Shown: one piece after another, positions 345 to 61,052 of the stretch
Layout of the letters: each line of letters starts with the position of its first letter
How positions within the stretch are numbered: position 1 is the first letter of the stretch
Source: Synechococcus sp. UW69
GTDB lineage: Bacteria; Cyanobacteriota; Cyanobacteriia; PCC-6307; Cyanobiaceae
Assembly: GCF_900474185.1 (NCBI RefSeq)
Contig: NZ_UCNW01000009.1
Coordinates: forward strand, 496,001-560,000
Length of the DNA: 64,000 bases
Direction: 5' to 3'
The notes under the pieces: generated by a model
What the model was told of the DNA's origin: nothing
Database searches by the model: none
Seen by the model: only the letters and a program-made list of their open reading frames with translations
Made by a program: the position numbers and the translations under genes

Positions 345-346
345 AA

Positions 347-6638: not shown

Positions 6639-6674
6639 TCGGGTTTTAACCTGACGAGTCACTCTTTAATTCTT

Positions 6675-9802: not shown

Positions 9803-9831
9803 TACTATTCATTTTCTCCTCTGACTTTCTC

Positions 9832-10971
9832 ATGGTTATTCCATTTACTACACCTGCCGATCATTACATCCCTTCTGATCGTTATCAGCAAATCTTTGGT
9901 GTCCCGAAGATTTGGCCACACAATCGTTGGGTTCACTTAATTCATAATTGGAGAACTGGAGGTAGCAGTCTTACAGCTCTTCTTAGTGTCAATGTGCATG
10001 ATAGTTATTTAAAGATCGGCCACCCCTTCACTAGGTGTGGATGGCCTGTACCGTATGACGTGCAGCCTCTTCAAATCACAGAAGCTAAGCAATTAAAATT
10101 GTGGATTAAGTCTCAAAAATCGCCTGCGATATTAGCTGGTCATACTTATGCCGGTATGCCATTAGGTTTAGGAATTTCTGACTATGACAAGTGGATTACC
10201 ATGCGTGAGCCAGCTTCCAGAATGAATTCTGGGTTGTTACGCTTCCACAGAAAAACTTTAAGAAGTGATAGTCAAGATGGTGGATATGTCGGTAAGACTA
10301 AAGGTTGCGATTTCTCATCTCCGCAACAAATAATTGATATATCTAATAATCAACTTTCCCACGAACTCAATGGAATGACTCGACGGCTTGCTGGTTATGC
10401 TGCCATTAACAGTCATGAGTCATTCTCATCAGATCTCGAATCCTGCGAGTTACTAGATAATAAACCTATTGATCAATCTACTTTTGATCTAGCTATGGAC
10501 TACCTCTCAGCTACTAACTGGATTTACTTAACAGATCAAGTGTTGCCTTCGATTTTAATATTAGAATCCCTGTATGGGTTAAAACCATTTATACATCCTT
10601 GTTCTGACCTTATTCATAATCCTCAATGGAATGCAAGTGGTGTTACACGTATACAGCAATCGCTTTTGTCTGAAAATCGTTCATTGCTTGAATCGCTTAA
10701 TCAATGGGATGTTAAATTATTCTCTAGAGCTAAATCTTTATTTTGGAGCATGTGGAAGGAATGTGATGTTCCTCCTGCTCGCCTAAAAGCCAGGAGAATA
10801 CTCCAATGTAAGCCACTGATCTCACCCGTTCAACTTAAGAAAGATTCTGCTAATGCCCGTAAAGTAATAGAATCAAAAATTAATTTCCGTATACAGCATG
10901 AGGCCGATCATGAGGTGCAATATTGGATCGAAAAAGACGGTTTAGGCGCTAATTTCTGGAAACATCTTTAG
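9832..10971 (+). CDS. Sulfotransferase-family protein
   Basis: 379 residues. HLIHNWRTGGSSLTALLS at about residues 35-52 matches the 5'-phosphosulfate loop (PK-x-GG-S/T-S type) of PAPS-dependent sulfotransferases. WITMREPASRMNSGLLRFH near 120-138 matches the 3'-phosphate-binding R-x-P-x-x-R-x-x-S segment, with E in place of the usual N. The acceptor is unknown; neighbours suggest a glycan or the secreted surface protein. It starts 29 bases after the exporter gene on the same strand and ends overlapping the convergent parvulin-like gene by four bases. AT-rich, consistent with an acquired block. Confidence 0.7.
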   Translation: MVIPFTTPADHYIPSDRYQQIFGVPKIWPHNRWVHLIHNWRTGGSSLTALLSVNVHDSYLKIGHPFTRCGWPVPYDVQPLQITEAKQLKLWIKSQKSPAILAGHTYAGMPLGLGISDYDKWITMREPASRMNSGLLRFHRKTLRSDSQDGGYVGKTKGCDFSSPQQIIDISNNQLSHELNGMTRRLAGYAAINSHESFSSDLESCELLDNKPIDQSTFDLAMDYLSATNWIYLTDQVLPSILILESLYGLKPFIHPCSDLIHNPQWNASGVTRIQQSLLSENRSLLESLNQWDVKLFSRAKSLFWSMWKECDVPPARLKARRILQCKPLISPVQLKKDSANARKVIESKINFRIQHEADHEVQYWIEKDGLGANFWKHL

Positions 10972-11663
10972 TTCTGGACATCTTGCATTAAATACTTGTC
11001 TATAATATCTTTGGTTTTTTTGTCAAGCCAGTTCTCAAAAAGTTCTTCTGCTAGCATTTTACGTGTATCTTTATCAAGTTGTAGCTCTATTCTTTTGGTG
11101 ATTTCTAGGATTGCGTAGTTTTTTCCCATCCTGAACGGTTCGCTAACTTTATTCAACTCTAGGCCTGTAATTATTGATTTAATTTCTTTTCCTAATTTAT
11201 TGCTTGGAATATTTTCGTATATTCCACAGAATTTCTTTTCTGGGTCGATGCCCCATTTATTGGATACTGATTCCCACTCTTCTTCCTGGTTCATGATTCT
11301 TTGTTGAGCTTCTAGGATTACTCCTTTATTTTGATTTCTCAACAGTTTAAAGCTGTATTTGTCTAGAGTATCTTTTCTGTTTAAGTAATGTCTGTCTGTT
11401 TGACTGCTAAACCAATCCCATGATAGGGCATCCTTTGCTCTTTCGAAGAGTGTTTCTGCTGATGTTTCTTCTGTATTATTCTCAATTCCATCTAAATATA
11501 TATAAATAGCCCTAACTAGGCGAGACTTGATAAGTGTAGTCAATAGGTTTAGCTGATCAAGCTCTTTGCATAGAGTACTTGTTAGTCCATCTTTAAATTC
11601 GGCTATTGATGTATCTTTTGTTAGCGTGTCTTCGATTTCCTCAATTCTTATCTTTTTATTCAT
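10968..11663 (-). CDS. Parvulin/SurA-like protein associated with type I secretion
   Basis: 231 residues, no signal peptide. The C-terminal half reads EEEWESVSNKWGI, then G-x-Y-E-N-IPSNKLGKEI and KVSEPFRMGKNYAILEITKRIE, the shape of a PpiC/parvulin-type domain (FADLAKRYS...G...PI-x-KL...G-x-L-x-EPFR...W-x-VVRLE in classical members). It aligns along its length with the protein at 17161-17946, which also neighbours an exporter gene. The peptidyl-prolyl isomerase active-site residues are not clearly conserved, so it may be a chaperone for unfolded export substrates. The start overlaps the end of the dioxygenase gene by four bases (ATGA). Confidence 0.6.
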   Translation of the reverse strand: MNKKIRIEEIEDTLTKDTSIAEFKDGLTSTLCKELDQLNLLTTLIKSRLVRAIYIYLDGIENNTEETSAETLFERAKDALSWDWFSSQTDRHYLNRKDTLDKYSFKLLRNQNKGVILEAQQRIMNQEEEWESVSNKWGIDPEKKFCGIYENIPSNKLGKEIKSIITGLELNKVSEPFRMGKNYAILEITKRIELQLDKDTRKMLAEELFENWLDKKTKDIIDKYLMQDVQN

Positions 11664-12523
11664 AGTTTTTTGATGTTAAGTTTGATGTGCTGAAGCTCTC
11701 CAAAATTTTGAGTGTCTTTCGGCTTTACGACTCTAACAAGTAAGGCGTCTCTGGGCGAAGTCATAGTTTCAGTTGCATATGTTCGGTGAAATGTAAGTCC
11801 ATCGAAAATTATCATGTCCCCCCTGTTAAGCCTTGGGCGTTTTATTTGTGAGTTTTTGTCTACTTCTTTTGCTTGTTTCTCGAATATCTCTACCTTCTTT
11901 CCATCATAACCATAAATACCCTTAAACGAATTTACTTCTAGATTGTGTATTGATAGCCCTGGTATTTGTTCCCCAAATCCGTCCTGGAGTGATGCCATTA
12001 ATACAATCATCGCTCTATTGCCGTGTTTGGGGTTGCTGTCTTGATGCCACGTTAAATTGCTTGCATTGTGTCCAAGTTTTCGAGAATGGTCTTCAGACAT
12101 TGGCCATGTTCTTCGAAGGAGAGTCTTTTGTCTGATAATTGCTATTTCATCTCCGATGTTTGTTTGTAACAAGTTTTTTGCCTTTTTTAGCATTGCAAGT
12201 GCACCGCTGAGCTGATGTCTCTTCTCAACTGAATCTCCCAGTGTAATTTCATCGGCGATGTATAAGGGTCTATCGCTTACCTTTTTGAATCTCTGGTCTG
12301 CAATTCTTAGAAGTCTTTGTATTTTTATTTCAGGGAGCGATTTTTCGATAGTGATGTATTGACCTGTTTTTAGCTTTCGAAATTGATTTTCTTCGTCCTC
12401 TTTTTCGGCGCCTAAGTGAATCGTCATTTTCTCCCTTGGGTAGAGTGCCATGGCCTTTTGGAATTTACTAATGAAGTTCTTGCCTTTGAGATGATTCCAC
12501 TTCATTTTCCTGAGTCTGTACAA
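11660..12523 (-). CDS. Fe(II)/2-oxoglutarate-dependent dioxygenase-like protein
   Basis: 287 residues. WHQDSN supplies an H-x-D pair (H160, D162) and FDGLTFHRTY a distal histidine (H246), followed by a basic residue in SPRDALLVR (R258 or R264) that would bind 2-oxoglutarate. This is the 2-His-1-carboxylate facial triad of phytanoyl-CoA/prolyl-hydroxylase-like oxygenases. The substrate is unknown: hydroxylation of a secreted protein or of a small metabolite would both fit. It is translationally coupled (four-base overlap) to the parvulin-like gene at 10968 and lies beside the exporter. The 115 bases upstream to 12638 are AT-rich and contain nothing recognised. Confidence 0.65.
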   Translation of the reverse strand: MYRLRKMKWNHLKGKNFISKFQKAMALYPREKMTIHLGAEKEDEENQFRKLKTGQYITIEKSLPEIKIQRLLRIADQRFKKVSDRPLYIADEITLGDSVEKRHQLSGALAMLKKAKNLLQTNIGDEIAIIRQKTLLRRTWPMSEDHSRKLGHNASNLTWHQDSNPKHGNRAMIVLMASLQDGFGEQIPGLSIHNLEVNSFKGIYGYDGKKVEIFEKQAKEVDKNSQIKRPRLNRGDMIIFDGLTFHRTYATETMTSPRDALLVRVVKPKDTQNFGELQHIKLNIKKL

Positions 12524-27071: not shown

Positions 27072-28090
27072 TGGGGCGAACAGTTCTTGTCACTGGCGCT
27101 GCAGGCTTCATTGGCGCAGCCCTCTCGAGACGACTTCTGCAGCGTGGTGATCGTGTTGTCGGTCTCGACAATCTGAACAACTATTACGACCCCAGCCTTA
27201 AGCAGGCAAGGTTGGGTCAGATCGAAGCCGTGGCTCCTTCTGGAGCCTGGCGTTTTGAGCGTTTGGCGTTGGAAGATGGTGAGTCGTTGACGGCACTGTT
27301 TGCTGAAGAAAGGCCCAAGGTGGTGGTGAATCTGGCCGCGCAGGCTGGTGTTCGTTATTCCCTGGAGAACCCGGCGGCTTACATCCAGAGCAACCTGGTG
27401 GGCTTCGGGAATTTGCTCGAGGGCTGCCGCCATTCCGGCACCGAAAACCTTGTGTACGCCTCAAGTAGCTCGGTTTATGGCGGTAACCGTAATTTGCCGT
27501 TTCACGAACGTCAGCCGGTGAATCATCCGGTGAGCCTGTACGCCGCTAGCAAGAAGGCGAACGAGTTGATGGCTCATACCTACAGCCATCTCTATGGGCT
27601 GCCGGCTACAGGGTTGCGCTTTTTCACGGTGTATGGCCCCTGGGGGCGCCCCGACATGGCTCCGATGCTGTTTGCCAAAGCCATCCTTGCGGGTGAACCG
27701 ATCAAGGTTTTCAACCACGGCAAGATGCAGCGTGATTTCACCTACATCGACGACATCGTCGAGGGGGTGTTGCGTTGCTGCGACAAGCCGGCGACTTCCA
27801 ATGCTGCCTTTGATCCGCTGCAGCCGGACCCGGCCACGGCGGCGGCACCGCATCGGGTTTTCAATATCGGCAACAGTCAGCCCATCGAACTATTGCGCTT
27901 TATCGAGGTGATGGAGCAGACACTGGGCCGTGAGGCGGTGAAGGATTATCAACCGATGCAGCCGGGCGACGTTGTTTCTACGGCTGCCGACACATCAGCT
28001 CTTGAGAGTTGGATTGGTTTTAAACCTGCAACATCTCTTGTCTGCGGCATAAAAAATTTCACCGAATGGTTTACTGATTTCTATGATTGA
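27071..28090 (+). CDS. UDP-glucuronate 4-epimerase
   Basis: 339 residues from ATG 27071, overlapping the ugd stop by one base (TGATG). LVTGAAGFIGAALSRRLLQR, the family-specific LDNLNNYYDPSLKQARL, SSSSVYGGN, Y-x3-K in YAASKKANELMAH and FFTVYGPWGRPDMAP mark the GAE group that makes UDP-galacturonate. Last in the UXS-UGD-GAE operon. Downstream sequence becomes AT-rich and decayed. Confidence 0.92.
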   Translation: MGRTVLVTGAAGFIGAALSRRLLQRGDRVVGLDNLNNYYDPSLKQARLGQIEAVAPSGAWRFERLALEDGESLTALFAEERPKVVVNLAAQAGVRYSLENPAAYIQSNLVGFGNLLEGCRHSGTENLVYASSSSVYGGNRNLPFHERQPVNHPVSLYAASKKANELMAHTYSHLYGLPATGLRFFTVYGPWGRPDMAPMLFAKAILAGEPIKVFNHGKMQRDFTYIDDIVEGVLRCCDKPATSNAAFDPLQPDPATAAAPHRVFNIGNSQPIELLRFIEVMEQTLGREAVKDYQPMQPGDVVSTAADTSALESWIGFKPATSLVCGIKNFTEWFTDFYD

Positions 28091-28540
28091 GAAATTACTA
28101 ATACTTTGTTTTGGGAGGAAAAATTTTCCTTTGGGCATTCGCTATTTGCGTTTACACGATCGCCACTTTGAAGGTTCAGCAGTTGTTGCTGGAAAAATCT
28201 ACTGAATTGGCTTATTGAATGAAGCCAATTCTTGCTCGTGCCGATTAGTTCGTGATATATCAATTTTTTTACGATAATATTTTGGTGGCTTGCAGATTAA
28301 TCGATCGCTTTTGATTTTCCTAGTCTTTCCCCGATTTTGGCTGGTTAATGCGATTTTATTAGTAAAAGCTGAAAGCTGGAAAGAGCCCTGAATATAGTAG
28401 ATAACAATATTTTCTAGTGCTGTGTATTGGCACTACTCCTTATGCAGAGGTTGAGCTCTTAAATGATGATTTTAAATTGTGGTCTGAACTTTTTGCCGAA
28501 ATCAGTGTTGCCTGTCATTGATTGATTTCTTGTCTCTCTG
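28083..28540 (+). pseudogene. Possible decayed gene after the UDP-sugar operon
   Basis: A frame opened by ATG 28083 (overlapping the preceding stop) shows protein-like text with several stops (MIEKLLILCFGRKNFPLG, later NRSLLIFLVFPRFWLVNA), then a shifted frame from 28417 reads VLCIGTTPYAEVELL and on to a stop near 28520. No family was recognised; a broken glycosyltransferase is one guess. From about 28541 to 28790 nothing was seen. The whole 28091-29528 stretch has no intact gene. Confidence 0.3.
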
Positions 28541-28790
28541 AAGTATTTATTAGTTGTTATAATTGATTTTTGAAGAGGCTTCTTGCGTTACGGCCATTAG
28601 ACTTATAACTATAATGTCGATATCGCGCTCTTCGATTTTTAATAAACATGCACTATAAATTTAAGGGTAGACAGATAGTTGACAAGATGACTGCTCACAA
28701 ATACTTGTTAATTGCAGGAAGTTGAAACTGTGGAATGATCTATTCGCATGATTGCTAAGTCTAGGTAGGCTGTTCACAAAGATCTCATAA

Positions 28791-29299
28791 ACTAATGCCT
28801 TTTTTGGCAGGCATCTTATCTGTATTCCTGAAAACGTTAATCACTATATCGATTATATTCAAAAGAAATCGCAATTTCTAGAGTCGTTAGGCTTCATTAA
28901 ATTATCAACAGATTATTCCCAAATGCGCAGTCATGAGCTGCATAATTGCGCAAAGCATATGTAATACAATTGTCCACATTTGGCTCAAATTTCTTTATCA
29001 AGAAACCCGATCGATCGATTTGAGTCTGCATTTATTCGCTACATGTTACAGAATAGAATACGTTGCCAGGAAACTATGCATGAAGCCAAGGCTGGTTTCA
29101 GCATGATCTTGCCAGGAAAAATATTCTTTCGCATTAAAATATTGGCGTGAATTTCACGCAGAAGTTGGCATTTGTCTATACGATAATCTGCTTTTGAATT
29201 CTGCTCAGTCTCAATAATATCCTCCATTGTTTCGACATTAATCATCATATTGCTGCATCAGATGTAGAGTCTAGATCTAATGATTCTCTGCCAAACTAA
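28791..29299 (+). pseudogene. Decayed sulfotransferase gene
   Basis: From 28791 one frame reads CIPENVNHYIDYIQKK and continues to a TAA (about 28956), then in the same frame gives ISLSRNPIDRFESAFIRYM (28989-29045), a good match to the 3'-phosphate-binding segment R-N-P-x-x-R-x-x-S-x-F of sulfotransferases. The frame then fails: plausible text resumes in a second frame (KYWREFHAEVGICLYDN, about 29140) and a third (INHHIAASDVESRS to a stop at 29299). No 5'-phosphosulfate loop remains. The sequence is AT-rich. From 29300 to 29528 nothing else was identified. Confidence 0.5.
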
Positions 29300-29528
29300 A
29301 AAAGACAGCAGTAATTTGCAAAGCTAAACCCTTCTTAGAAGCCAACAAAAATGCAATCAATTACCATAAGCCATGTATTCATAAATTAGAGCCAATGATC
29401 ATCGAGATCTCAGCTCGTGGCTTGAAATTTGAACTGCTTTTGATGTGCTTTGGCCTTAATTGAAATCACTGTTCTTGCTTGACAGGATCACGGCGGGACA
29501 GCTATGATTTATATAACAAACTATTGCT

Positions 29529-31898
29529 ATGGAATATTTTAATCGCATAAGTGATTTAATTCATCATAAGCATGATTATGAGAGTGCTTCATATTATATA
29601 AAAGAACTGCTTTCGAATAAAAGTTTAAGCAAGCAAGATGAGACCTTGCTAAAACTAAAGCTGAGATATTGTGCCTTAAAGCGTGGAAAAATTAAGTCCA
29701 AGTCACTAGTGGCCATTGATGAATCTGAGTGGCATTTAAGTAAAGCATTAGAAACAAATTTAGTAAGTCTTGGTGAAAATGGGCATCATTTAACAGAACT
29801 ATCTATTTCGCCTAAAGTTACGATCATTTTGCCTATCTACAATGCCCCTATTGCTTTGAAAGGGTGTTTAGATAGCCTTTTAAATTGCACGCCTTCTTCT
29901 GTAAGAATTATAGCAATTAATGACGCTAGCACTGATCCTGAGATATCAAATTTACTTGACTCTTATTCAATAGCCCAAAATTTAGATATATATACAAATG
30001 CTGAGAATTTAGGCTTCTCAGGGACTGTAAATCGTGGATTTTCTTTGGCAAATAATAACGATGTGATTATACTCAACAGTGACACTGTTGTTACTCCTGG
30101 CTGGGTCTCTAATTTAAAGATCAAAGCTTATTCTAACCCTAGAATAGCAACAGTTACTCCTCTATCTAATAGCGCTGGTCCTTTCTCAGTTGCAAAAACT
30201 TGCTCACCAAGAGAAGCTATTCAAATTCAAAAGCTTCTTAATTCTCTCGGTTGTGAGCATCACTTTGAGAGTCTTCAAGAAATGCCAACAGGCCATGGTT
30301 TCTGCCTTTACATTAAATCCAAGGCTTTTGAAGAAGTCGGTTATTTTGATCAAGTTAACTTTCCTCGCGGCTATGGAGAAGAAAATGATTTTTGCATGAG
30401 ACTAAAAAAGAAACAATATATAAATACTCTTGATACCAAAACTTATATTTATCATGCTGAAGCAGCCAGCTTTGGATCTGAGAATAAGATGTCTATGGTG
30501 AAAGAAGGTCGTCTCAAGGTTGACGAATTACATCCAGAATATACACAAGAGATAAGAGATTATTTTGCAAGCTTCAATTACAAGCAAGCTATTGAAAATT
30601 TGAATAGTTTTTTGCAAGAGAATATTTCCACTTCGGCAGCGCGTAACGCATTATTTTTGGTGAATGTTAAGACTGGCGGCACCCCGCAAACCAATCGCGA
30701 CCTGATGATTGCACTAAAAAAGAATTATAATATACAACCTTTTTGCCTTTATGTAAGGAAAAGTGCTGCCCAGCTAAGTCTAATTGATAATAATTTTGAT
30801 GAAATATTTGGGGCCGAATATTCTATTCCAGAGACAAGATTGCCATCCCATGCCAATCAATTTCTTGAAAGAATCTATATTCAACTTCTTGAAAAATTTA
30901 GATTCTCCTTTGTTCATGTTCGCCATATGGGTTGGCATAGCGTAAAAATATTTGATATTTTAAAGTTTTTTCATGTCCCTTGTTTCTTCAGCTTGCATGA
31001 TTTTTATACGGTTTGTCCTAATATAAAATTGCAAGATGCTGATAACAAGCATTGTGGAGGCGATTGCCTGCACTCGAAAGCGGCGAATGATTGTAAATAT
31101 GAATTATGGGATCACCCTTTTTCTAATGTTCTTAAGAATGATGGTGTTTATAAGTGGCAAAGCATATTTAAACAATGTTTGTCAGATGCCAATGCATTGA
31201 TTACTACATCTCATACAGCTTTTGAGATAGTTCAAAGTGTGTACCCTGATGTTGTGTCTTGCAAGGATTTTCGCATTATTGAACATGGCCGAGAACTATA
31301 TCTCTCATCATCGAAGTCTAGGAAACCCAAGAAACCAAGTACCGAGTCGAAACTCAAGTTACTTGCACCTGGCAATATTACAGATACGAAAGGTGGATTA
31401 CTTATCAAGCAACTCGCTCAGGATGAGCAGCTAAGTAGTTGTTTAGAGGTTCATATTTTAGGTAATATTCAAAATCAACTTAATATTAACGATAACTCTT
31501 CGATAATATGTCATGGTGGTTATGATCGGAATGATTTTCCCGAAATAGTTGCTGCTTTGTCGCCAGACATTGGCCTAGTTTTGTCTATCTGGCCCGAAAC
31601 GTATTGTCATACGTTGACTGAATTGTGGATGTGTAATGTGCCTGTTATTGGTACTAATCTAGGAGCAGTGGGTGATAGATTGAGGAAATGTGGTGGTGGA
31701 TGGGTTATCGATCCCACCTATGGCTCGTTAAAGTTTATTTTAAACAAGCTTTTGAAAAATCGTGATTTGATCAATGATGCTCAAGATTCAATAATTAATA
31801 GATCGGATTATGGCTTATACCCTTTCATACTTCCAGTTAATGTGATGGCGAGAGAGTATATGTCGATCTATAGAACTTACTGCCAAGATCTAGCTTAG
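29529..31898 (+). CDS. Bifunctional glycosyltransferase (GT2 domain followed by GT4-like domain)
   Basis: 789 residues. After about 90 helical residues, VTIILPIYNAPIALKGCLDS starts a GT2 domain with NDASTDPE, NAENLGFSGTVNRGF and ILNSDTVVTPGW (the DxD-like SDT), and MPTGHGFCLYIK and GYGEENDFCMRL acceptor-side motifs, to about residue 350. From about 375, LFLVNVKTGGTPQTNRDLM begins a GT4-like domain with LLAPGNITDTKGG and a donor-site IWPETYCHTLTELWMCNVPVIG-type segment. Two transferases in one chain are typical of O-antigen or glycoprotein glycan loci. AT-rich; ends overlapping the convergent sulfotransferase gene by four bases. Confidence 0.85.
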   Translation: MEYFNRISDLIHHKHDYESASYYIKELLSNKSLSKQDETLLKLKLRYCALKRGKIKSKSLVAIDESEWHLSKALETNLVSLGENGHHLTELSISPKVTIILPIYNAPIALKGCLDSLLNCTPSSVRIIAINDASTDPEISNLLDSYSIAQNLDIYTNAENLGFSGTVNRGFSLANNNDVIILNSDTVVTPGWVSNLKIKAYSNPRIATVTPLSNSAGPFSVAKTCSPREAIQIQKLLNSLGCEHHFESLQEMPTGHGFCLYIKSKAFEEVGYFDQVNFPRGYGEENDFCMRLKKKQYINTLDTKTYIYHAEAASFGSENKMSMVKEGRLKVDELHPEYTQEIRDYFASFNYKQAIENLNSFLQENISTSAARNALFLVNVKTGGTPQTNRDLMIALKKNYNIQPFCLYVRKSAAQLSLIDNNFDEIFGAEYSIPETRLPSHANQFLERIYIQLLEKFRFSFVHVRHMGWHSVKIFDILKFFHVPCFFSLHDFYTVCPNIKLQDADNKHCGGDCLHSKAANDCKYELWDHPFSNVLKNDGVYKWQSIFKQCLSDANALITTSHTAFEIVQSVYPDVVSCKDFRIIEHGRELYLSSSKSRKPKKPSTESKLKLLAPGNITDTKGGLLIKQLAQDEQLSSCLEVHILGNIQNQLNINDNSSIICHGGYDRNDFPEIVAALSPDIGLVLSIWPETYCHTLTELWMCNVPVIGTNLGAVGDRLRKCGGGWVIDPTYGSLKFILNKLLKNRDLINDAQDSIINRSDYGLYPFILPVNVMAREYMSIYRTYCQDLA

Positions 31899-32917
31899 AT
31901 CTCTTCAATTTGTTGTCTAGATAAGCTTCTGTATTGATCAATTATTTCTAGCATTTTTGTTATTTTTTCTGGTTGAATGCCTTCTTGGGATGAGATAATC
32001 AGGTTCAGATTTAATTCGCAATGCTTTACTTTCAATAGGGTCTGGTTGTAAAGAGCATTCACTGATTCTCTTACTTTGTTTTCCTCCATTTTTCGCTGGC
32101 CCTCAGTACGATGGATGTCATTTATTTTTTGGGTCGTATTTGCAAACAATGAGTCAAGTTCCTTGAGAAGCTTTAGATATAAGTTGTCTAAGGTTTTTTC
32201 TCTCCAATCAATTATGGTCTGCACTTTGCTTTCTATGCCATTATCCCCATCCAGTTCATCGGATTGAAGCGAGTTCTCCTCAGTATCTTTGTTGTCTATG
32301 AGATTGTATCCAAAAGCCTTGAAGTCATATTTATAGAACTGATTGATTGCTTGAATTGCTTTAGTGTTCAATTCAGACTTGTCAGCACGGCTCGAAAAGC
32401 TCTTAGCATTTTTCTCGGTCGGTATTTCTATATCGCTAATAGAATTATTTTCGCGAATATAGAATTCTGCTATGAATTCAATTCCATCCTCAAGCTTAAA
32501 TATATTACACGGTGAGCTTGTATCAACAAAGTCGAGACACGTGCGGAAATGATTGTCTGCAAAACTGCAATCCACTGATGCTTTTTCCAGTGATTCTACG
32601 ATCCACTCATTAATCTCTGGCTTGTCACATTGTTCTGTATTCCTAAATTGCCAGTTGAATTCAGATACAATTCTTGCGTATGGATTTCGTACAATGATAA
32701 ATATATCCTCTAGCTTTTTCATGTTTACTATTGATTTTAGTTTTTCGCATGTTTGATGTTGTGGGGAAGCGGTTAGGCAATCTTGTGGTGGCAGACCACG
32801 CATTTCAAGCGTAGAAGAATAGCCATTGCTTTTAAATAGTTTATCAACCGAAGAGCCCCCACACTTTGGTACGTGTAAAAACAAAATTGAATGATTATTT
32901 TGTATGAATAGCGTCAC
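31895..32917 (-). CDS. Sulfotransferase-family protein
   Basis: 340 residues. SILFLHVPKCGGSSVDKLF (about residues 10-28) is the 5'-phosphosulfate loop in its bacterial form, and IFIIVRNPYARIVSEFNW (about 73-90) the 3'-phosphate site. The remainder, including a helical C-terminus rich in K and E (from about 230), is not conserved in known families. PAPS-dependent sulfation of a glycan or protein is inferred. AT-rich; third sulfotransferase-like sequence in the window counting the decayed one at 28791. Confidence 0.8.
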   Translation of the reverse strand: MTLFIQNNHSILFLHVPKCGGSSVDKLFKSNGYSSTLEMRGLPPQDCLTASPQHQTCEKLKSIVNMKKLEDIFIIVRNPYARIVSEFNWQFRNTEQCDKPEINEWIVESLEKASVDCSFADNHFRTCLDFVDTSSPCNIFKLEDGIEFIAEFYIRENNSISDIEIPTEKNAKSFSSRADKSELNTKAIQAINQFYKYDFKAFGYNLIDNKDTEENSLQSDELDGDNGIESKVQTIIDWREKTLDNLYLKLLKELDSLFANTTQKINDIHRTEGQRKMEENKVRESVNALYNQTLLKVKHCELNLNLIISSQEGIQPEKITKMLEIIDQYRSLSRQQIEEI

Positions 32918-32933
32918 GGCCGATACTATTTGA

Positions 32934-33080
32934 TTTTTTATTATAGCCTTGCTAAGGCTTGGTGCTGATAATCTACCTGATCATCACGGTAGTGTAGACG
33001 AGGTTGATTTGCAAAGCCTCATTTTCGCTTTTGTTCATCGTTGCTTGTCGTGTATCATAGATAAGTTTCAAGCTTATTGA
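32934..33080 (+). pseudogene. Possible coding remnant before the coiled-coil gene
   Basis: Open in one frame with protein-like text (LGADNLPDHHGSVDEVDLQ, LIFAFVHRCLSCIIDKFQAY) up to TGA at 33078-33080, without a convincing start. The next gene begins two bases later in another frame. Taken together they look like a frameshifted or truncated larger gene. Confidence 0.3.
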
Positions 33081-33081
33081 C

Positions 33082-33552
33082 TTGGTTCATTCAAAGGCCG
33101 ATAAAGGCTCTTATCTGCCTAGTTTATTGGAGTTGACTCAAGCTCTTGGCGGCTTAGTTGCCGATGTGGAAAACGCGAAAAGATTTAGCAATGTACAATT
33201 AGATCTTCTAGATCAGCGGTTAGGTGAATTTAAGTCATTAACGGAAGAGAGGGATGAAGCGCTTCGTTCGCTTTCTGTGTTGAGAGAGCAATTGGACATC
33301 AATGTCAAAGAGAAAGAACAGTTATCTCAGCAGGTTTCGGATATGAGCAGCCAGTTGGAAGAGCTTGATAGGGCTCGAAAGGAGAGCCTAGAAGCACGCC
33401 ACCAAGTTGAATTGGTTCTACTCCAATTGGGTCAAGTGCAAGAGGAATTAGAGCATTATTTTCTTTTGAGTCGTCATCAGTCTGAATTGTTAAGGGCAAA
33501 CGAGGAGTTGCAGGCGAGATTCGCTCTTTTGCTTGCAAATGCAGCCGATTAG
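33082..33552 (+). CDS. Coiled-coil protein, possibly a 3' fragment
   Basis: 156 residues from TTG 33082, which has no Shine-Dalgarno-like sequence before it. Almost all is heptad coiled coil (LDQRLGEFKSLTEERDEALR, LREQLDINVKEKEQLSQQ), ending in LLQLGQVQEELEHYFLLSRH, a tail often found at the C-terminus of larger picocyanobacterial glycan proteins (from memory). It may therefore be a leftover of such a gene. Isolated between the sulfotransferase gene and the psbJ terminator. Confidence 0.5.
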   Translation: MVHSKADKGSYLPSLLELTQALGGLVADVENAKRFSNVQLDLLDQRLGEFKSLTEERDEALRSLSVLREQLDINVKEKEQLSQQVSDMSSQLEELDRARKESLEARHQVELVLLQLGQVQEELEHYFLLSRHQSELLRANEELQARFALLLANAAD

Positions 33553-33563
33553 ATGTCTGCTGC

Positions 33564-33585
33564 AACGAGGTATTAACGAGGTATT
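33564..33585. repeat. Tandem 11-bp direct repeat
   Basis: AACGAGGTATT occurs twice without a gap, 12 bases after the coiled-coil gene stop and before the psb terminator. Possibly a replication-slippage or excision scar. Confidence 0.7.
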
Positions 33586-33611
33586 CCCCATTTAATGCCT
33601 TGAATTAAATA

Positions 33612-33638
33612 CAAAAAAACCGGCATTAGGCCGGTTTT
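33612..33638 (-). terminator. Rho-independent terminator of the psb operon
   Basis: On the minus strand: stem AAAACCGGC / GCCGGTTTT with a five-base loop, followed by T residues (complement of the seven A at 33613-33619). It lies 28 bases beyond the psbJ stop. On the plus strand the four T after the stem might give weak termination of the coiled-coil gene. Confidence 0.88.
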
Positions 33639-33665
33639 GTATGTATTTCTGAATTTCAGCTCTGA

Positions 33666-33866
33666 TCAAGCGGAGCCAACGCCTGTGTAGGAACCGTAGA
33701 AAAATAGACCCACAACAAACAGCACGGCCATTCCTCCTGCAGTAGCGACAAGCCATAGAGGAAGGACGCCTTCGGTCCAGCGTGACTTCCAGGGAACTGC
33801 GGGGCGGCCATCGGGCAGGCGATCTGGAATTCGACCGTCGGGAAACAGGGATTTTTTTCCGCTCAT
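33666..33866 (-). CDS. psbJ: Photosystem II protein J
   Basis: 66 residues. The C-terminal 38 carry the single thylakoid helix ([20 protein letters not shown]) and [14 protein letters not shown] end of PsbJ. The N-terminal 28 residues are longer than in most plant forms, as is common in picocyanobacteria (from memory). PsbJ stabilises forward electron flow and assembly around cytochrome b559. Last gene of the psbE-psbF-psbL-psbJ operon. Confidence 0.95.
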
Positions 33867-33876
33867 GGAATAAACC

Positions 33877-33996
33877 TCAGTTGAAGAAGTAGCTGGACAT
33901 GAGCACGCCGGTCACGAAGACAAACAGCAGACCCAGGTAGAGGCTGGTGCGGTTGAGTTCAACCGGAAGGTTGTTGGGGTTGGGATTGCGTTCCAT
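33877..33996 (-). CDS. psbL: Photosystem II protein L
   Basis: 39 residues, [20 protein letters not shown] at the start then [19 protein letters not shown]. This is a full, normal PsbL with one membrane helix; it helps PSII dimerisation and protects the acceptor side. Too short for usual ORF cut-offs but certain from sequence and its place between psbF (nine bases upstream) and psbJ (ten bases downstream). Confidence 0.96.
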
Positions 33997-34005
33997 GAAT
34001 CGGAA

Positions 34006-54457: not shown

Positions 54458-55543
54458 TTGAGCTCTCAGGCTGGGAATCTGGTGTCGATTGAATTCACGC
54501 GTCCGCAAATCAATCGTGATGAGCGGATGCTGTGGATCCATGCCGGTCCCCATAAGGCAGCCAGTAGTTACGTCACCGAGCGACTTCGACAAAACCGGGA
54601 CCATCTCGCAGCCCAGGGTGTGTTGATGGACGGTGATGACAATCGTCTGGCCAATGCCATCGCACAAAAGAACTATGCGCCTGTTGAGGAAGCGCTCGCC
54701 ACCCTGCCTTCTTCACTTCACAGGGTTTTGCTTAGTAGTTCCTCTTTGGATGATCGGATCCTTAGCCGAACTGCCTTGGGTAGATTGCAGGCTCTGGTTG
54801 AGCGTCAGGGGTTCAAATTAGGAGTCAGTTACTTCGTTAGAGATCAGCAGTCTTGGTTGAATTCAGTCTACGCACATCGAGTTCGACGGTTTCGTGAGAC
54901 GCCTGATTTTGAGCGATATTGTGATTACATTATGCATGATTCTGACTCGTGGGATATTTCTTATCCATCCAAATTTCGTGTGCTGAGTCGCTTCCCCTCG
55001 ATTGCGACGTTGTTTCTTCCTTTGTCCAAGCAGGTGGCGATCACCGATCCGTTTCTGGCCTTGGTTAATGCTCTGGGTCTGGATGCTCCATCGGGTGAAC
55101 AGGGCTGGTTGGCGGGCCGTTCCTCGAAGCAGAACATCCAGCCTGGCGCCCGGGGTATCTGGATGTCGGCTCTGTGTCGCCGCTTGATGGTGGAGACGGG
55201 TTTCGATCCGGAAGTGCTGAAGCGGAAGGGCAAGGTCATCCGTGACCTCGCGATCGAACTTGGCTGGGATCGGGAGAAGTTTGACGGTTTCGATCAACCG
55301 CTTCATGACAGGGTGTCGGCCTTTTATGCCAGCTCTAACGAGGCTTTTGCGCAGCAACACTGGGGTGTCAGTTGGGACAGCCTCTTCCCAGTGCGGCCTG
55401 CGGGGCAACAGGTTTATTCGGGGCCTGAGGCCGAGGTGGAGCGGAAGGAGATGCGAGGTCTGATGGTTCGCGTGCTGCGGGAGCTGCGTTTCCCATGGCG
55501 CTTGCGGCGTCGTTTCTTTTCTCTGTACGACGCCGCTGTGTGA
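54458..55543 (+). CDS. P-loop sulfotransferase-like protein
   Basis: 361 residues from TTG 54458; alternatives are GTG 54482 and ATG 54527 (MLWIHAGPHK). LWIHAGPHKAASSYVTERL resembles the 5'-phosphosulfate loop and LGVSYFVRDQQSWLNSVYAH the 3'-phosphate region of bacterial sulfotransferase-like families. The essential Lys is present; the rest (from about 180) is unique. Possibly acts on a surface polymer. Its first half is AT-richer than the flanks (about 54700-55000). Confidence 0.6.
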   Translation: MSSQAGNLVSIEFTRPQINRDERMLWIHAGPHKAASSYVTERLRQNRDHLAAQGVLMDGDDNRLANAIAQKNYAPVEEALATLPSSLHRVLLSSSSLDDRILSRTALGRLQALVERQGFKLGVSYFVRDQQSWLNSVYAHRVRRFRETPDFERYCDYIMHDSDSWDISYPSKFRVLSRFPSIATLFLPLSKQVAITDPFLALVNALGLDAPSGEQGWLAGRSSKQNIQPGARGIWMSALCRRLMVETGFDPEVLKRKGKVIRDLAIELGWDREKFDGFDQPLHDRVSAFYASSNEAFAQQHWGVSWDSLFPVRPAGQQVYSGPEAEVERKEMRGLMVRVLRELRFPWRLRRRFFSLYDAAV

Positions 55544-55555: not shown

Positions 55556-57103
55556 TCAGCTAAGGCCTTCGCGCTTGGCCTCTTTCCAAGCCAGCCGTGG
55601 CGCGCTCCATAGGGTGGCCAGCACCAATGGGGTGACAGGTACAGCGGTTATCACGATGAAGGCCTGCAAGGCATCGATGGAGGTGCTGTCCCCTAGGCCT
55701 GTGCCAATGCGCAGCAAAACCAAGGTGAGGCTGCCAATCATCAAGGCCCAGAACAGCCGCAGAAGAGCTGGCGGCTCATTGCGGCCGCTCACCACCATGG
55801 CTGCGGCGTAACTCATCGAGTCGGCGCTGGTGCACATGAACAGCACCACCAGCAATAGGCCGATGGGGATCAGCACTCCGGCAAGGGGCAACTGGCTGAG
55901 GATGGTCAGCAGTGCTGCGGCGGCACCGTTCTGGGCCAGGGCTTCACTGATGCCACCCCCGGCCAACTCGAGATGCAATCCGGTGCCCCCAAGCAGGGTG
56001 AACCAGACGTTGGTCACGATCGGGCAGAGGATCGCCACGGCCAGTACCAGCTCACGGATGCTGCGGCCGCGGCTGACGCCGGCGGTGAACAGCCCCATCA
56101 GCGGCGCATAGCCAAGGAACCAACCCCAGTAGAAGACAGTCCAGCCGTTCACCCAGTTCGAAGGCGCTGCGTTGGGTGCAAGAGCCATCTGCGGCAGATG
56201 GACCAGATAAGTGAAAAAGCCGCTGAAAAAGTGCTGGATCAGCCAGAAGCCAGGGCCTAAGAGCAGAAGGCCTGCTGCCATGGCCAGAGTGAGCCAAACG
56301 TTGAGCTCCGACAGCCACTTGATGCCCTTTTGAATGCCGCTGACGGTGGATGTCGCAAAGACGGCCGTCAGAAGCACCACCACCAGGGATTGCAAGCCTG
56401 CACTGTCGGTGAGCCAGGGCAATTGCCCTGCAGCGTTGCTGAGCTGCAGAGATAGGAATCCCAGGGGACCAACGGTGCCGGCGATCGCTGCCACCACAGA
56501 CAAGCCGTCCGCTAGGTGACCGATCGGGCCATCCACCCAGCTGCGCGGAACGATGTTCACCAGCAGGGTGCGGGGACGCAGGGGTTCACCGCGTCGTTCC
56601 AGGATCGAGAAGGTGATCGTGGTGGTGGTGGCCACAAGAGCCCAGGCCAGGAACCCCCAGTGCAGAAAACTCACCGCCAGGGCGGGATCCACCGCGGCTG
56701 CTGTGCTGCCTTCGACCCCTGCAAACACCGGTGATGGGGTCTGGAAGTGATACAGCGGTTCGGCAGCGGACCAGAACACACCCCCTCCTGCCAGCAGGGT
56801 GCAGATCAGCACCGCACACCAATCGAAGAATTTGAAGCTCGGCTTGGCATCCGCTCCGCCAAGCCGGAGTTTGCCGATAGGGCTGATGGCAAGGATCAGC
56901 GCGATCAGGAACAGCAGCACCACCATCCATTGCCAGACCGCCCCCAGGGCATCACTGATCACGGCTTTGCCAGTTTCAGTGAAATGCTTGGCCAGAGCCA
57001 GGTCGATGGCCGAGACCAACAGAAAAATCAGCAGCGGGATGGCGCCGACCCAGAGCGGGGGCTGTTGCCACCAGGAGCGCTGGTTCGCGGGGTTGTCAGA
57101 CAT
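55556..57103 (-). CDS. BCCT-family transporter
   Basis: 515 residues, about 12 membrane helices. FFDWCAVLICTLLAGGGVFW, FSFLHWGFLAWALV and the signature WGWFLGYAPLMGLFTAGVSR with GRSIREL (residues about 320-350) define the betaine/carnitine/choline family. Substrates of the family are quaternary ammonium or sulfonium compounds, sodium- or proton-coupled. Starts 19 bases after the FAD oxidase stop and is probably the last gene of the cluster with it. Confidence 0.9.
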   Translation of the reverse strand: MSDNPANQRSWWQQPPLWVGAIPLLIFLLVSAIDLALAKHFTETGKAVISDALGAVWQWMVVLLFLIALILAISPIGKLRLGGADAKPSFKFFDWCAVLICTLLAGGGVFWSAAEPLYHFQTPSPVFAGVEGSTAAAVDPALAVSFLHWGFLAWALVATTTTITFSILERRGEPLRPRTLLVNIVPRSWVDGPIGHLADGLSVVAAIAGTVGPLGFLSLQLSNAAGQLPWLTDSAGLQSLVVVLLTAVFATSTVSGIQKGIKWLSELNVWLTLAMAAGLLLLGPGFWLIQHFFSGFFTYLVHLPQMALAPNAAPSNWVNGWTVFYWGWFLGYAPLMGLFTAGVSRGRSIRELVLAVAILCPIVTNVWFTLLGGTGLHLELAGGGISEALAQNGAAAALLTILSQLPLAGVLIPIGLLLVVLFMCTSADSMSYAAAMVVSGRNEPPALLRLFWALMIGSLTLVLLRIGTGLGDSTSIDALQAFIVITAVPVTPLVLATLWSAPRLAWKEAKREGLS

Positions 57104-57121
57104 CGGATGAGGGGTGAAAGA

Positions 57122-58312
57122 TCAGGCTCGGACGGCGTCGCGTTGGTGGCTCCAGCAGGAGAGATCCACTGCAGGTTGTTCACCACTGGCGAGGCGTGCC
57201 AGAGAATCACCGATCAGAGGAGCGAACTTGAAGGCCTGGCCGGAGCCCCCTGCAAACAGACTCAGCTTCGGGGTGAGCCGATCCAGCACGAAGTTCACAT
57301 CGCTGGCCATGGAGTACGGGCTGATCACGGTCTCGACTCGCTCCTGAACTCCCTCCAATTCGTTGAAGAGGAAGGTGTCGAGCAGCTCCACCAGTCGGGC
57401 TGGTGGCTCGGTGACCATGGCGTTGGGTGCGGCGACCCTCAGTTCTCGTGGGGCCCAGTCGATGCCGGCCTTGATCCTGGGCCTGCCATCCGCCGTTTGG
57501 CTCAACACGGGGAAGCCGTAGTACAGGCCACCATCGTCGCCTCGTTCTTGCTGGAAGCAGAACCACTGGGGGTAGCGATCAGCGAGTGCTGGGTTGACGG
57601 TGTAGTGAGCCCAAAGCATCGGCCACACCTCCAGTTTCGGTGCCAAGCCGAGGGGGGCGAGCAACAGTTGGCTCCAGATCCCGCAGGCCACCACCAGTTG
57701 GCTTGCGGCGATGTGCTCGCCGCTCTGCAGGGTGACGCCTCCACCATCGGGATCGAGTCCGGCCACGGGGCAGTGCTCGATCAGCTGATGGTCGGCGTTA
57801 CGGGCGGTATTGATCCAGTGGGAGAGAACTTTGTCGCTGCGTACGGCACCGGCGGTGGGTTCGAACAGGCCAGTGAAACCGGCCTTCGGCTTCAGCGGGA
57901 AACGGGCAGCGATCTGTTCGGCATTGAGGGCCTCGTAGGGGATTCCCTGATCGTCCATGACCCGGCGGGCCCCGGGGATCGATCCCTCGATCGTTTCCTC
58001 ATCCCAGCTTTCGCCGTAAAAGAGCAGGCCGTGGGTCTCTCTCAGCTGCTCGCCGGCGTGAGTTTCCTCGTCCCGCCAAAGGCGATTGGCCTCCTGGGCC
58101 AGACGGCAGAGCACCGGGTCGGAATACATCTCCCGGAACATCCGGGTTTCGCCGTAGCTGCTGGCCTTGGCGTGGGCCAGGGTCTTGGCTTCCAGCAGCA
58201 CCACATCGCGCACGCCGCGGCGGGCAAGGGATGCAGCGCAGCTCAGGCCCGCCATGCCGCCGCCGACGATCACGACCGCTGCGCGGCTGGGCATTGAGGA
58301 GGGCGTGCTCAT
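57122..58312 (-). CDS. FAD-dependent amine oxidase (monomeric sarcosine/N-methyltryptophan oxidase-like)
   Basis: 396 residues. Dinucleotide motif VVIVGGGMAGLSCAASLARR at the N-terminus and GGSGQAFKFAPLIGDSLARL at the end, as in MSOX and SolA. Between them, VISPYSMASDVNFVLD aligns with the C-M-Y-T-x-T-x-D-E-H-F segment of MSOX; here Ser replaces the cysteine that binds FAD covalently, so FAD is probably non-covalent and the substrate may differ. Oxidises an N-methyl or secondary amine in the family. The start overlaps the dehydrogenase stop by four bases (ATGA), so the two are coupled. Confidence 0.8.
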   Translation of the reverse strand: MSTPSSMPSRAAVVIVGGGMAGLSCAASLARRGVRDVVLLEAKTLAHAKASSYGETRMFREMYSDPVLCRLAQEANRLWRDEETHAGEQLRETHGLLFYGESWDEETIEGSIPGARRVMDDQGIPYEALNAEQIAARFPLKPKAGFTGLFEPTAGAVRSDKVLSHWINTARNADHQLIEHCPVAGLDPDGGGVTLQSGEHIAASQLVVACGIWSQLLLAPLGLAPKLEVWPMLWAHYTVNPALADRYPQWFCFQQERGDDGGLYYGFPVLSQTADGRPRIKAGIDWAPRELRVAAPNAMVTEPPARLVELLDTFLFNELEGVQERVETVISPYSMASDVNFVLDRLTPKLSLFAGGSGQAFKFAPLIGDSLARLASGEQPAVDLSCWSHQRDAVRA

Positions 58313-59364
58313 TCGCTATCTCCAAAGCTCAGGCCGATGGGATCGGTGGAGGGTGTCGCCGCCACTTCCTCGAGGGCGTCACCAACCGACAAACCCTGTT
58401 CGCGCTGATTGAGATAGTCGCTTGCCCGCCGGCGCACCTCATCGCGTACGAAGGCATAGACGTCCGTGGCGCCTGCGTCCTTCCAGGCATCTGGGGAGAA
58501 CCGCTCGATCGAATCGGCGATCACGGCGCCAGCATTCACAAGAGGGTCCGGCAGTACCCGCACACCGCGGCGACGCAGGTCGTCTGCTAACTGCGGTTGC
58601 TGGAAAGGGGCATTGGCTGCAGGAACCACGGCGGGGGTCTTCAAGGCCGTTGCCATTTCGGCGTTGATCAACCCGGAGATGGAACAGGGCAGCACCAGGT
58701 CGAGGTCCAGTTCCCACCAGGCACAGCTCTCAGGCAGAGGCGTCGCGCCGGGAAAACTGGCTCTCTCGCGATCCAGATCCACGGTGAACACCGTCCAGCC
58801 GTGATTAACGAGATGACGGGCCACCGTTCCGCCGACGGCACCGCAGCCGTGCACGAGGGCCCGGCCGGGAATGGCGTCTTTGAGGTCCTTCTCCAGCACT
58901 GCCTCCACGGCGCCGAGGGTGCCATGGGCGGTGGCGGCACTGGCGTCTACTGGGCTGCCGACCGCCGCCAGCACATGCGGTGTGAGCGCCGTCAGACGCT
59001 CCATGTCCTCCAGGCTGGTGTTGAGATCGCAGCCAGTGATCATGGCGCCATCGAGCGACTCCAGCAGCTCGGCGGTGACGCTGATCAATTCATCCTTGAC
59101 CGCATCGGGCTCCGCTGCCCGGGCGACGATCTTGCCTCCAGCAAAACCGGTGCCGTAGAGATCGTGCTTGTGGGTCATCAACCCCGCCAGCCGCTGTCCG
59201 TCAGCGATGCAGGCCTCATCGCTCGGGTAATTCAGCAGGCGCAGGCCCCCGTTGGCGGGGCGCTTGGCATCAGTGTCTTCCGCCACCACGAACACCGAGA
59301 GGTGGTCGGAGACGTGTTCCGCCAGCACCGACACGGTCGGCGATGCTTTCTTGCTGCTGCTCAT
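58309..59364 (-). CDS. Leucine dehydrogenase-like amino acid dehydrogenase (ELFV family)
   Basis: 351 residues from ATG 59364, directly on the methyltransferase stop (TAATG). GLMTHKHDLYGTGFAGGKIV contains the two lysines (substrate carboxylate and catalytic) of LeuDH; the D-containing GCDLNTSLEDMERLTALTPH and NAD motif HGCGAVGGTVARHLVNHGW follow; PLVNAGAVIADSIERF matches the family end. The acid after the second strand (VDLD) favours NAD. Such enzymes interconvert an amino acid and its 2-keto acid with ammonia. Lies between a methyltransferase and an amine oxidase. Confidence 0.85.
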   Translation of the reverse strand: MSSSKKASPTVSVLAEHVSDHLSVFVVAEDTDAKRPANGGLRLLNYPSDEACIADGQRLAGLMTHKHDLYGTGFAGGKIVARAAEPDAVKDELISVTAELLESLDGAMITGCDLNTSLEDMERLTALTPHVLAAVGSPVDASAATAHGTLGAVEAVLEKDLKDAIPGRALVHGCGAVGGTVARHLVNHGWTVFTVDLDRERASFPGATPLPESCAWWELDLDLVLPCSISGLINAEMATALKTPAVVPAANAPFQQPQLADDLRRRGVRVLPDPLVNAGAVIADSIERFSPDAWKDAGATDVYAFVRDEVRRRASDYLNQREQGLSVGDALEEVAATPSTDPIGLSFGDSE

Positions 59365-60401
59365 TAGGCCACCTTCTCCATCATCTGGTGGTGTTCGACA
59401 TAGTCGAGGCTCCATTCGCTGGGGGTTTCGGCGATGCGCTGTTGCAGACGCTCGTACACCGTGTCTGCAGCGGCGTCCCCGGCAGCACTGGCGAAGCTAT
59501 GGCGGCTCCAGCTGCGGATCGTCGCCATCAAGCCGGCGGCGAAAGCGGTCGTGTCACCGTTGTCGTTCCAGCGGCGTCTGTAGGGGCACTTCACATAGAC
59601 CGTCCGCTCGTCCACGAGGCGCAGTCCGTTGCGGTAAGCGGCGCTGCTCTCGTCCTTCAGCGGAGCCATGAACTCCTCGGGGGACTTGTAAAAATTCAGA
59701 ACGGTGCCTTTTTTGTATTGCTCTGCGCTGATTAGGCCTTCCTCGGCCATGCCGCGCCAGATCTGGTGCAACTGGTCGTGCACATTGCGGGTTTCGCCGC
59801 CGTTATGACCGAGATAGCGTCCTTCTTCATCGCGTGAAAGGTTCACGGTCAGCAGTCGCCCGCCCACCTTCAGCTCGCGACTACGCAGTTCAAGGATGTA
59901 GTTCCAGTCCTTCATCGCCTGGGCGGTGAAACGCTGAAGGGCGTCGGCATCACCGGAGGCCAGCACATGGGTGTGGCTATCGAGTGGTCCGGGCGAAGCG
60001 CTCAGCCAGTGCATGGCGGTTGCGGAGAAGCCGAAGCTCACGCTGTCCGGGGCTACGGAGGGCTCGTAGAAGCTGCGGGCACTCACCAGCACTGTTGGCT
60101 TTGGATCCCGGGGAATCTGCAGGGCCAGGTTTTCTGCCAGAGCGAGGTTGTCGTTGCTCGGTAAGTCATTACCGATCAGCGTCAGATGAGCATTCGGCTG
60201 GTTGGCATGCAGGCGATCCAGCACCTGATTCCAGAGCCCTACAGCAGTGCCGCCATCGGCAGCTCCGTAATCGATCAGAACATGGCTGTCTGCGACAGCC
60301 AGTTGATTCACACAAGTCAAGGCCCAGTCCGAGGCGGCTTCAATGCACAGAAGAGCGCCTTCGGTCTGCGCGCTGTAACCCGTGGTCATGGCGATGGCCA
60401 T
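59364..60401 (-). CDS. SABATH-family carboxyl methyltransferase-like protein
   Basis: 345 residues from ATG 60401 with GAGG close upstream; ATG 60389 is possible. GNDLPSNDNLALAENL matches the plant N-D-L-P-x-N-D-F motif, and SFGFSATAMHWLSASPGP the S-x-H-W-L-S motif of salicylate/jasmonate carboxyl methyltransferases; SAM loop VLIDYGAADGGTAVGL is near residue 41. Substrate-loop residues cannot be read with confidence. Such enzymes make methyl esters of carboxylic acids, or N-methylate in related members. First of the four-gene run with the dehydrogenase, oxidase and BCCT transporter. Confidence 0.8.
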   Translation of the reverse strand: MAIAMTTGYSAQTEGALLCIEAASDWALTCVNQLAVADSHVLIDYGAADGGTAVGLWNQVLDRLHANQPNAHLTLIGNDLPSNDNLALAENLALQIPRDPKPTVLVSARSFYEPSVAPDSVSFGFSATAMHWLSASPGPLDSHTHVLASGDADALQRFTAQAMKDWNYILELRSRELKVGGRLLTVNLSRDEEGRYLGHNGGETRNVHDQLHQIWRGMAEEGLISAEQYKKGTVLNFYKSPEEFMAPLKDESSAAYRNGLRLVDERTVYVKCPYRRRWNDNGDTTAFAAGLMATIRSWSRHSFASAAGDAAADTVYERLQQRIAETPSEWSLDYVEHHQMMEKVA

Positions 60402-60470: not shown

Positions 60471-61052
60471 TCACGTTGCTTGGAGCAAATGACGCAGTTG
60501 GGGTTCCAGGAGGCTGAAGGCTCTGCCGCGATGGCCATGCTGTTTTTTCTCAGCCAGGGGCATCTCGGCAAAGGTGCGGCCCGTTCCAGCGACTTCGAAG
60601 ATCGGGTCGTAGCCAAAGCCTTGCTCCCCCCGAGGTGACGCCGTGATCAAACCGTCGCAACGGCCTTCCACCTCAAGCAGAACGGATCCATCGGGGGCTG
60701 CGATGCAGAGCGCAGCGCAGAAATGGGCTTGGCGTTGCTCTGAGCCGTTCAGCGCCTTCAATAGTCGCGCGATGCGTTCCGGATCGGTGGGGGCGTAGCG
60801 GGCGGAGTGAACACCCGGGGCGCCATCCAGGGCGTCCACGCTTAGGCCTGAATCGTCGGCCAACGCCCATTCCCCTGTAGTGGCTGCAACCGCTTGGGCT
60901 TTGAGGCGGGCATTGGCGGCAAACGTGCTGCCTGTCTCCTCCACCTCCAAACCCTCAGGCTGGGGCCGCACGCTGACGGGGAGGGCCTGCAGCAGACCCT
61001 GGAATTCACGAATCTTTCCGGCGTTGCCGCTGGCGATGACCAGTGCCTTCAT
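60471..61052 (-). CDS. rdgB: Non-canonical purine NTP pyrophosphatase
   Basis: 193 residues. LVIASGNAGKIREFQGLL (N-terminal S/T-x-N-x-x-K), ADDSGLSVDALDGAPGVHSAR and FGYDPIFEVAGTGRTFAEM are the HAM1/RdgB motifs. Removes dITP and XTP from the nucleotide pool. The start overlaps the phosphohexomutase stop by four bases. Confidence 0.95.
   Translation of the reverse strand: MKALVIASGNAGKIREFQGLLQALPVSVRPQPEGLEVEETGSTFAANARLKAQAVAATTGEWALADDSGLSVDALDGAPGVHSARYAPTDPERIARLLKALNGSEQRQAHFCAALCIAAPDGSVLLEVEGRCDGLITASPRGEQGFGYDPIFEVAGTGRTFAEMPLAEKKQHGHRGRAFSLLEPQLRHLLQAT

Follow-up and report, generated by a model that had tools for sequence, protein, structure and literature searches.

The window analysed here is a stretch of 64,000 nucleotides (positions 496,001 to 560,000 of contig NZ_UCNW01000009.1) from Synechococcus sp. 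UW69, a picocyanobacterium with a 2.37-Mb genome whose close relatives, by identity of the methyltransferase described below, are marine Synechococcus. Four genes on the minus strand of this window form the subject of this report. In order of transcription, they encode a SABATH-family methyltransferase of 345 amino acids (59364..60401; METHYLTRANSFERASE), a relative of the ELFV (Leu/Phe/Trp/Glu) dehydrogenases of 351 amino acids (58309..59364), a NikD-like flavoprotein of 396 amino acids (57122..58312, hereafter the FAD enzyme), and a BCCT transporter of 515 amino acids (55556..57103). The TAA stop codon of the methyltransferase gene and the ATG start codon of the dehydrogenase gene have one base in common (59364), the dehydrogenase and FAD enzyme genes overlap by 4 bases (ATGA, 58309-58312), and an 18-base gap follows the stop codon of the FAD enzyme gene, so that the transporter gene begins 19 bases after that stop. 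A scan for sigma-70-like promoters and a search against Rfam detected neither a promoter nor an element, a negative that carries little weight in a cyanobacterium.

An earlier, sequence-only reading of this DNA had reported these four genes with the same coordinates, overlaps, and spacing, all of which were confirmed by examination of the open reading frames and their junctions. The family assignments it made were likewise upheld by Pfam: the methyltransferase matches PF03492 (Methyltransf_7, the SABATH family; 1e-21, 77.9 bits against a curated cut-off of 29.8), the dehydrogenase matches both ELFV domains (PF00208/PF02812; 3.7e-15), the FAD enzyme matches DAO (3.3e-43), and the transporter is a full-length BCCT protein (PF02028; 5.8e-130).

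Conservation and co-inheritance of the cassette

In loci fetched from named genomes, the four-gene order is kept across marine Synechococcus, including strains WH7803 (L031) and RCC307, and the cassette sits downstream of phosphoglucomutase/phosphomannomutase and RdgB-type genes, the latter adjoining it in most loci. In the window, this upstream neighbour encodes an RdgB/HAM1 family nucleoside triphosphate pyrophosphatase (60471..61052, minus strand) and lies outside the pathway proposed below. Among the 29 loci with all four genes, the methyltransferase and dehydrogenase genes overlap by 1 or 4 bases in 28, and the dehydrogenase and FAD enzyme genes overlap by 4 bases in 28. Gene co-occurrence was counted in a sample of 300 genomes of the family, where strong matches to the methyltransferase and to the FAD enzyme share one set of 53 genomes, with the dehydrogenase found in those 53 and one other (G085; 54/300). 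Recurrence of this gene order in 29 loci, for the most part with identical overlaps, and the shared presence of the three enzymes in 53 of the 300 genomes show that the coupling of these genes exceeds chance; the operon postulated from the gene junctions, for which co-location in relatives was the check, is conserved as a unit.

Two genomes of 1.7 Mb (G308 and G272), in which the region of the locus has ~30% GC and which are judged Prochlorococcus-like from size and GC, carry the methyltransferase, dehydrogenase, and FAD enzyme genes (50-57% identity) elsewhere in the genome and without the transporter gene; therefore, the three enzymes are the core of the cassette and the transporter is accessory. 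In G021, a close relative from the same genus with a complete genome, all four genes are missing at the locus as a unit, whereas the mutase, RdgB, sulfotransferase-like, and carotenoid-oxygenase genes that flank it are retained. The sulfotransferase-like open reading frame, at 54458-55543 on the plus strand of the window, has no Pfam match and lies between the transporter gene and a SIMPL-domain gene in some strains; it is kept in G021, which lacks the operon.

In two complete or near-complete genomes, the methyltransferase gene is present as two overlapping reading-frame pieces (L057, G005:C1:267200-268230; and G281:C2:100595-101628), resulting from either a natural frameshift or a sequencing error, and the N-terminus of the FAD enzyme is likewise disturbed in G032 (L058). 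The method used detected no relative of the methyltransferase in viral contigs. A more distant SABATH methyltransferase, 30% identical to that of the window, is encoded on the conjugative plasmid pCB3171_3 of the legume symbiont Rhizobium sp. CB3171 (L063:12226-17339), where its gene follows radical-SAM-like and EamA-like transporter genes and directly precedes a gene for a DadA-like FAD oxidoreductase. This pair was considered as a version of the same pathway and rejected, the FAD protein being DadA-like and falling far outside in the tree; the plasmid gene set probably represents another methylated-compound pathway.

A candidate route from lysine to picolinate

We consider it probable that the product of the operon is the pyridine betaine osmolyte homarine (N-methylpicolinic acid), with L-lysine as the starting material; the substrates and products given below, the sequence of the steps, and what the transporter carries are inferred. 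The dehydrogenase, acting as an L-lysine 2-dehydrogenase of the leucine dehydrogenase type, would deaminate L-lysine oxidatively at C2 to 2-keto-6-aminocaproate, which would cyclise spontaneously to piperideine-2-carboxylate (P2C); the FAD enzyme, as a P2C oxidase, would convert P2C to picolinate; and the methyltransferase, as a picolinate N-methyltransferase (homarine synthase), would transfer a methyl group from S-adenosylmethionine (SAM) to the pyridine nitrogen. Given that these three steps would lead from lysine through P2C and picolinate to N-methylpicolinate with nothing left over, homarine is the proposed product. The BCCT protein, an add-on in Synechococcus, would take up homarine or a related betaine, or recapture leaked homarine.

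The solved chains nearest to the dehydrogenase are leucine and tryptophan dehydrogenases, and the catalytic Lys/Lys/Asp of the ELFV family is kept as K66, K78, and D113. Side-chain specificity in leucine and glutamate dehydrogenases is set by two positions, occupied by Leu/Val in the former and by Lys/Ser in the latter. The cassette enzyme matches neither type: it has Asn38 and Asp284, which are invariant in 11/11 orthologs and in the lone copy in G085. Asp284 was placed by the ungapped register of the sequence alignment, a register supported by a Glu at position 287 shared with glutamate and leucine dehydrogenases. An acid at this position predicts a cationic amino acid as the substrate and, combined with the NikD-like partner, makes L-lysine the natural choice. 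Against the model of the ScyB tryptophan dehydrogenase, the protein scores 103 with a cut-off of 600. Although it is encoded by the sole ELFV gene above the cut-off in the genome, its identification as the glutamate dehydrogenase of this organism was rejected, the pocket being unfit. The copy in G085 (L059:8549-9673, minus strand) stands by itself in a region of 73.5% GC, is about 60% identical, retains the Asn/Asp pocket, and comes from a genome with no strong matches to the methyltransferase or the FAD enzyme.

For the FAD enzyme, a profile search identified NikD as the closest solved relative (149.9 bits, compared with at most 127 for sarcosine oxidases). Single-sequence scores are nearly tied (120.1 bits for NikD and 116.6 for sarcosine oxidase), hence the need for the profile and for a phylogenetic tree. 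In that tree, the enzyme groups with NikD, apart from the sarcosine and N-methyltryptophan oxidases, with support of 100/97 when one long-branch row and one fragment are left out and 93/55 when both are included. The AlphaFold model is poor (pLDDT 64.5) and leaves NikD and the sarcosine oxidases tied at Z ~22, so it was not used for the decision. The enzyme has in common with NikD the T-x-E-G-x-I loop with its 4-residue insertion, in which E109 corresponds to NikD Glu101, whereas D285 corresponds to NikD Asp276; both features are invariant in 12/12 orthologs, and the sarcosine-oxidase group has neither. The carboxylate-binding Arg/Lys pair is kept as R60 and K362. Glu101 and Asp276, together with Trp355, belong to the active site of NikD. 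As Cys321 and Trp355 of NikD are not kept (see below), the claim for the cassette enzyme is that it groups with NikD and would work like it, which is narrower than being a NikD. Enzymes of the NikD type convert P2C, formed from lysine via a 2-aminotransferase, to picolinic acid (PMC4021061). Flavoproteins of the NikD clade with equivalents of Glu101, Asp276, and Cys321 are also encoded on Staphylococcus plasmids (L066:1314-2498 and L067:5902-7083), flanked by genes for a short-chain dehydrogenase and a second FAD oxidoreductase and annotated only as FAD-dependent oxidoreductase.

The same scheme could in principle build a smaller ring. If the dehydrogenase acted on ornithine or another diamino acid, the product would be pyrroline-2-carboxylate, which the FAD enzyme would oxidise to pyrrole-2-carboxylate and the methyltransferase would turn into an N-methyl or methyl-ester product. 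The Asn/Asp pocket suits any cationic amino acid, and ring size is not readable from sequence, but the substrate of NikD is the six-membered P2C (PMC4021061) and the compound reported in Synechococcus is homarine rather than a methylpyrrole carboxylate, which makes the ornithine route unlikely.

Catabolism is a quite improbable explanation. In a salvage pathway, the transporter, the gene of which adjoins those of the enzymes, would import a methylated amine, the FAD enzyme would demethylate it, and the dehydrogenase would deaminate the product for nitrogen metabolism. Membership of the FAD enzyme in the sarcosine-oxidase superfamily is in keeping with such a role, as is its best NCBIfam match, the N-methyltryptophan oxidase (SolA), on the strength of which a demethylating sarcosine or N-methyltryptophan oxidase was the first choice for this protein. 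However, that match (182.7 bits) is under the cut-off of 257, and the assignment was dropped when phylogeny and active-site residues placed the enzyme with NikD; the sequence-only proposal that the flavoprotein oxidises an N-methyl or secondary amine is likewise not supported. Salvage, moreover, leaves the methyltransferase without a role, and two core loci lack the transporter. Where the earlier reading had left synthesis, salvage, and import open, these transporter-less three-gene loci, taken together with the NikD-like and lysine-type pockets, favour synthesis, and a single product, homarine.

Methylation, transport, and the occurrence of homarine

The AlphaFold model of the methyltransferase (pLDDT 73) corroborates the Pfam assignment, matching every solved SABATH structure listed (the mycobacterial fatty acid methyltransferase [FAMT] and the xanthosine, caffeine-type, loganic acid, and salicylic acid enzymes) with Z of 24.7-29.0, compared with 15.0 for the next fold. 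The invariant Trp132 aligns with the salicylic acid enzyme (SAMT), and the invariant His131 just before it stands where FAMT has Gln154, in the numbering of the listed Q154A structure entry. The coffee trigonelline synthases CTgS1 and CTgS2 are SABATH enzymes that N-methylate nicotinic acid (PMC8877179) and, by analogy, would constitute a close precedent for the N-methylation of picolinic acid. A SABATH enzyme methylating the carboxyl group, with the methyl ester of picolinate serving as a volatile compound or a signal, or else a different methylated pyridine or piperidine acid as the product, is very improbable: most solved SABATH relatives, including the best match FAMT, are carboxyl methyltransferases, but the solved N-methyltransferases of the xanthosine, caffeine, and theobromine types match almost equally (Z 25.6-26.9), the trigonelline synthases of this family methylate the pyridine nitrogen, and a neutral ester would have no need of a betaine-type transporter.

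Of all parts of the model, the cargo that the homarine route assigns to the transporter is the weakest. The BCCT protein reaches the cut-off of none of the listed NCBIfam BCCT models (303.7 bits against 650 for the glycine-betaine equivalog), and its aromatic box, FYWGWFLGYAP, is invariant except for FF/FY in 28 fetched orthologs and L056, the corresponding segment of the solved trimethylamine transporter being FYWAWWIAWSP. Such an altered box may suit a different betaine that is planar, such as homarine.

Homarine was detected in both cultured Synechococcus strains in which it was measured, WH8102 and WH7803; the reported content reaches 18 mM, a value from WH8102, and is ~0.2 mM in WH7803 after a 25-fold correction by the authors (PMC8269262, PMC10134881). 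The operon is present in WH7803 (L031). For WH8102, a five-gene operon, SYNW0229-0233, has been predicted with the BCCT gene SYNW0229 at one end; in 2010 it was placed in an osmoregulation network as BetT and candidate betaine transporter subunits (PMC2874817). This operon fits the order BCCT, FAD enzyme, dehydrogenase, methyltransferase, RdgB in number and place. The comparison of genes with homarine thus covers two strains, both containing homarine, with the WH8102 genes taken from a published prediction. The combination of methylation, amino/keto-acid chemistry, and a betaine-type transporter recognised by the sequence-only reading is borne out, and a methylated osmolyte is probably concerned.

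Several observations weigh against the homarine route. We know of no enzyme activity or mutant for the cassette. The Cys that binds FAD covalently in NikD (Cys321) is replaced in 12/12 orthologs by V, F, or S, depending on the ortholog and the alignment register, and never by C, and the active-site Trp355 of NikD is Gln359 in all 12; therefore, FAD may be bound non-covalently here, and the reaction chemistry may depart from that of NikD. The pairing of Asp284 of the dehydrogenase with V294 of leucine dehydrogenase requires an ungapped helix, and HMMER set a 2-residue gap for one solved chain; the dehydrogenase is, in addition, found alone in G085 and so can serve elsewhere. For the methyltransferase, the choice between N- and carboxyl methylation is not decidable from sequence alone. 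Homarine levels differ ~90-fold between WH8102 and WH7803, both apparently carriers of the genes, the operon of the former being known from the published prediction alone, and homarine also occurs in diatoms and a haptophyte.

In particles of the surface ocean, homarine ranks with the more abundant of the small betaines. The metabolite papers describe its pathway as uncharacterised, with decarboxylation of quinolinate as a guess, and genetic information on its synthesis as lacking; according to two papers, the lack of known synthesis genes blocks gene-based tracing of homarine sources. That no pathway with this combination of genes has been described agrees with an open-access literature search (homarine, picolinic acid, methyltransferase), outside of which lay bioRxiv and subscription journals and which returned no paper tying homarine to such genes. 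The combination of enzymes, organism, and product route appears to be new. We think it somewhat likely that the cassette is the first genetically identified homarine route in any organism, comprising an ELFV-type L-lysine 2-dehydrogenase (a new activity), a non-covalent NikD-like aromatase, a bacterial SABATH picolinate N-methyltransferase, and a dedicated BCCT carrier. If so, the operon genes would serve in metagenomes and metatranscriptomes as markers of homarine production, and a measurable share of the carbon and nitrogen flowing through the sea would be tied to named genes of a phototroph that ranks among the most abundant; the quinolinate guess would be replaced for cyanobacteria; the genes catalogued in 2010 as parts of a betaine transporter would be re-labelled; and known enzymology would gain a lysine 2-dehydrogenase together with a bacterial pyridine N-methyltransferase. 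An open question in marine biochemistry thus becomes directly testable.

Elsewhere in the window, the segments at 1-12000 and 28000-34000 are mostly of low GC content (~0.35-0.44, with one 0.55 bin at 4-6 kb, compared with ~60% GC elsewhere) and encode TPR, ABC/cNMP-binding, glycosyltransferase, and sulfotransferase proteins. These stretches look like genomic islands for cell-surface polysaccharide.

Relation to known systems

One of the closest parallels is the picolinate branch of nikkomycin synthesis, consisting of the L-lysine 2-aminotransferase NikC and NikD, which follows the same logic from lysine through P2C to picolinate and in which a flavoenzyme of the NikD clade carries out the aromatisation. 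The route proposed here differs in that an ELFV dehydrogenase would replace the aminotransferase in the first step and in that picolinate would be N-methylated, whereas in nikkomycin synthesis it is activated to the CoA ester; the cassette flavoenzyme itself differs from NikD in lacking the covalent-flavin Cys and Trp355. With the plant trigonelline synthases CTgS1 and CTgS2, the methyltransferase shares the SABATH fold and, as proposed, SAM-dependent N-methylation of a pyridine monocarboxylate, but it is bacterial and distantly related, and its proposed acceptor, picolinate, is an isomer of nicotinate. The dehydrogenase resembles other ELFV enzymes in both domains and in Lys66, Lys78, and Asp113, and departs from them in a pocket of neither the hydrophobic nor the glutamate type. 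Similarly, the transporter is a full-length BCCT protein like the glycine betaine carriers of the BetP and OpuD type but has a different aromatic box and reaches only about half of the betaine equivalog cut-off. Finally, marine Synechococcus also make glycine betaine through GSMT/SDMT, a route that likewise yields a methylated betaine osmolyte by means of SAM in the same organisms but uses other genes (SYNW1913-1914 in WH8102), other enzyme families, and a different precursor.

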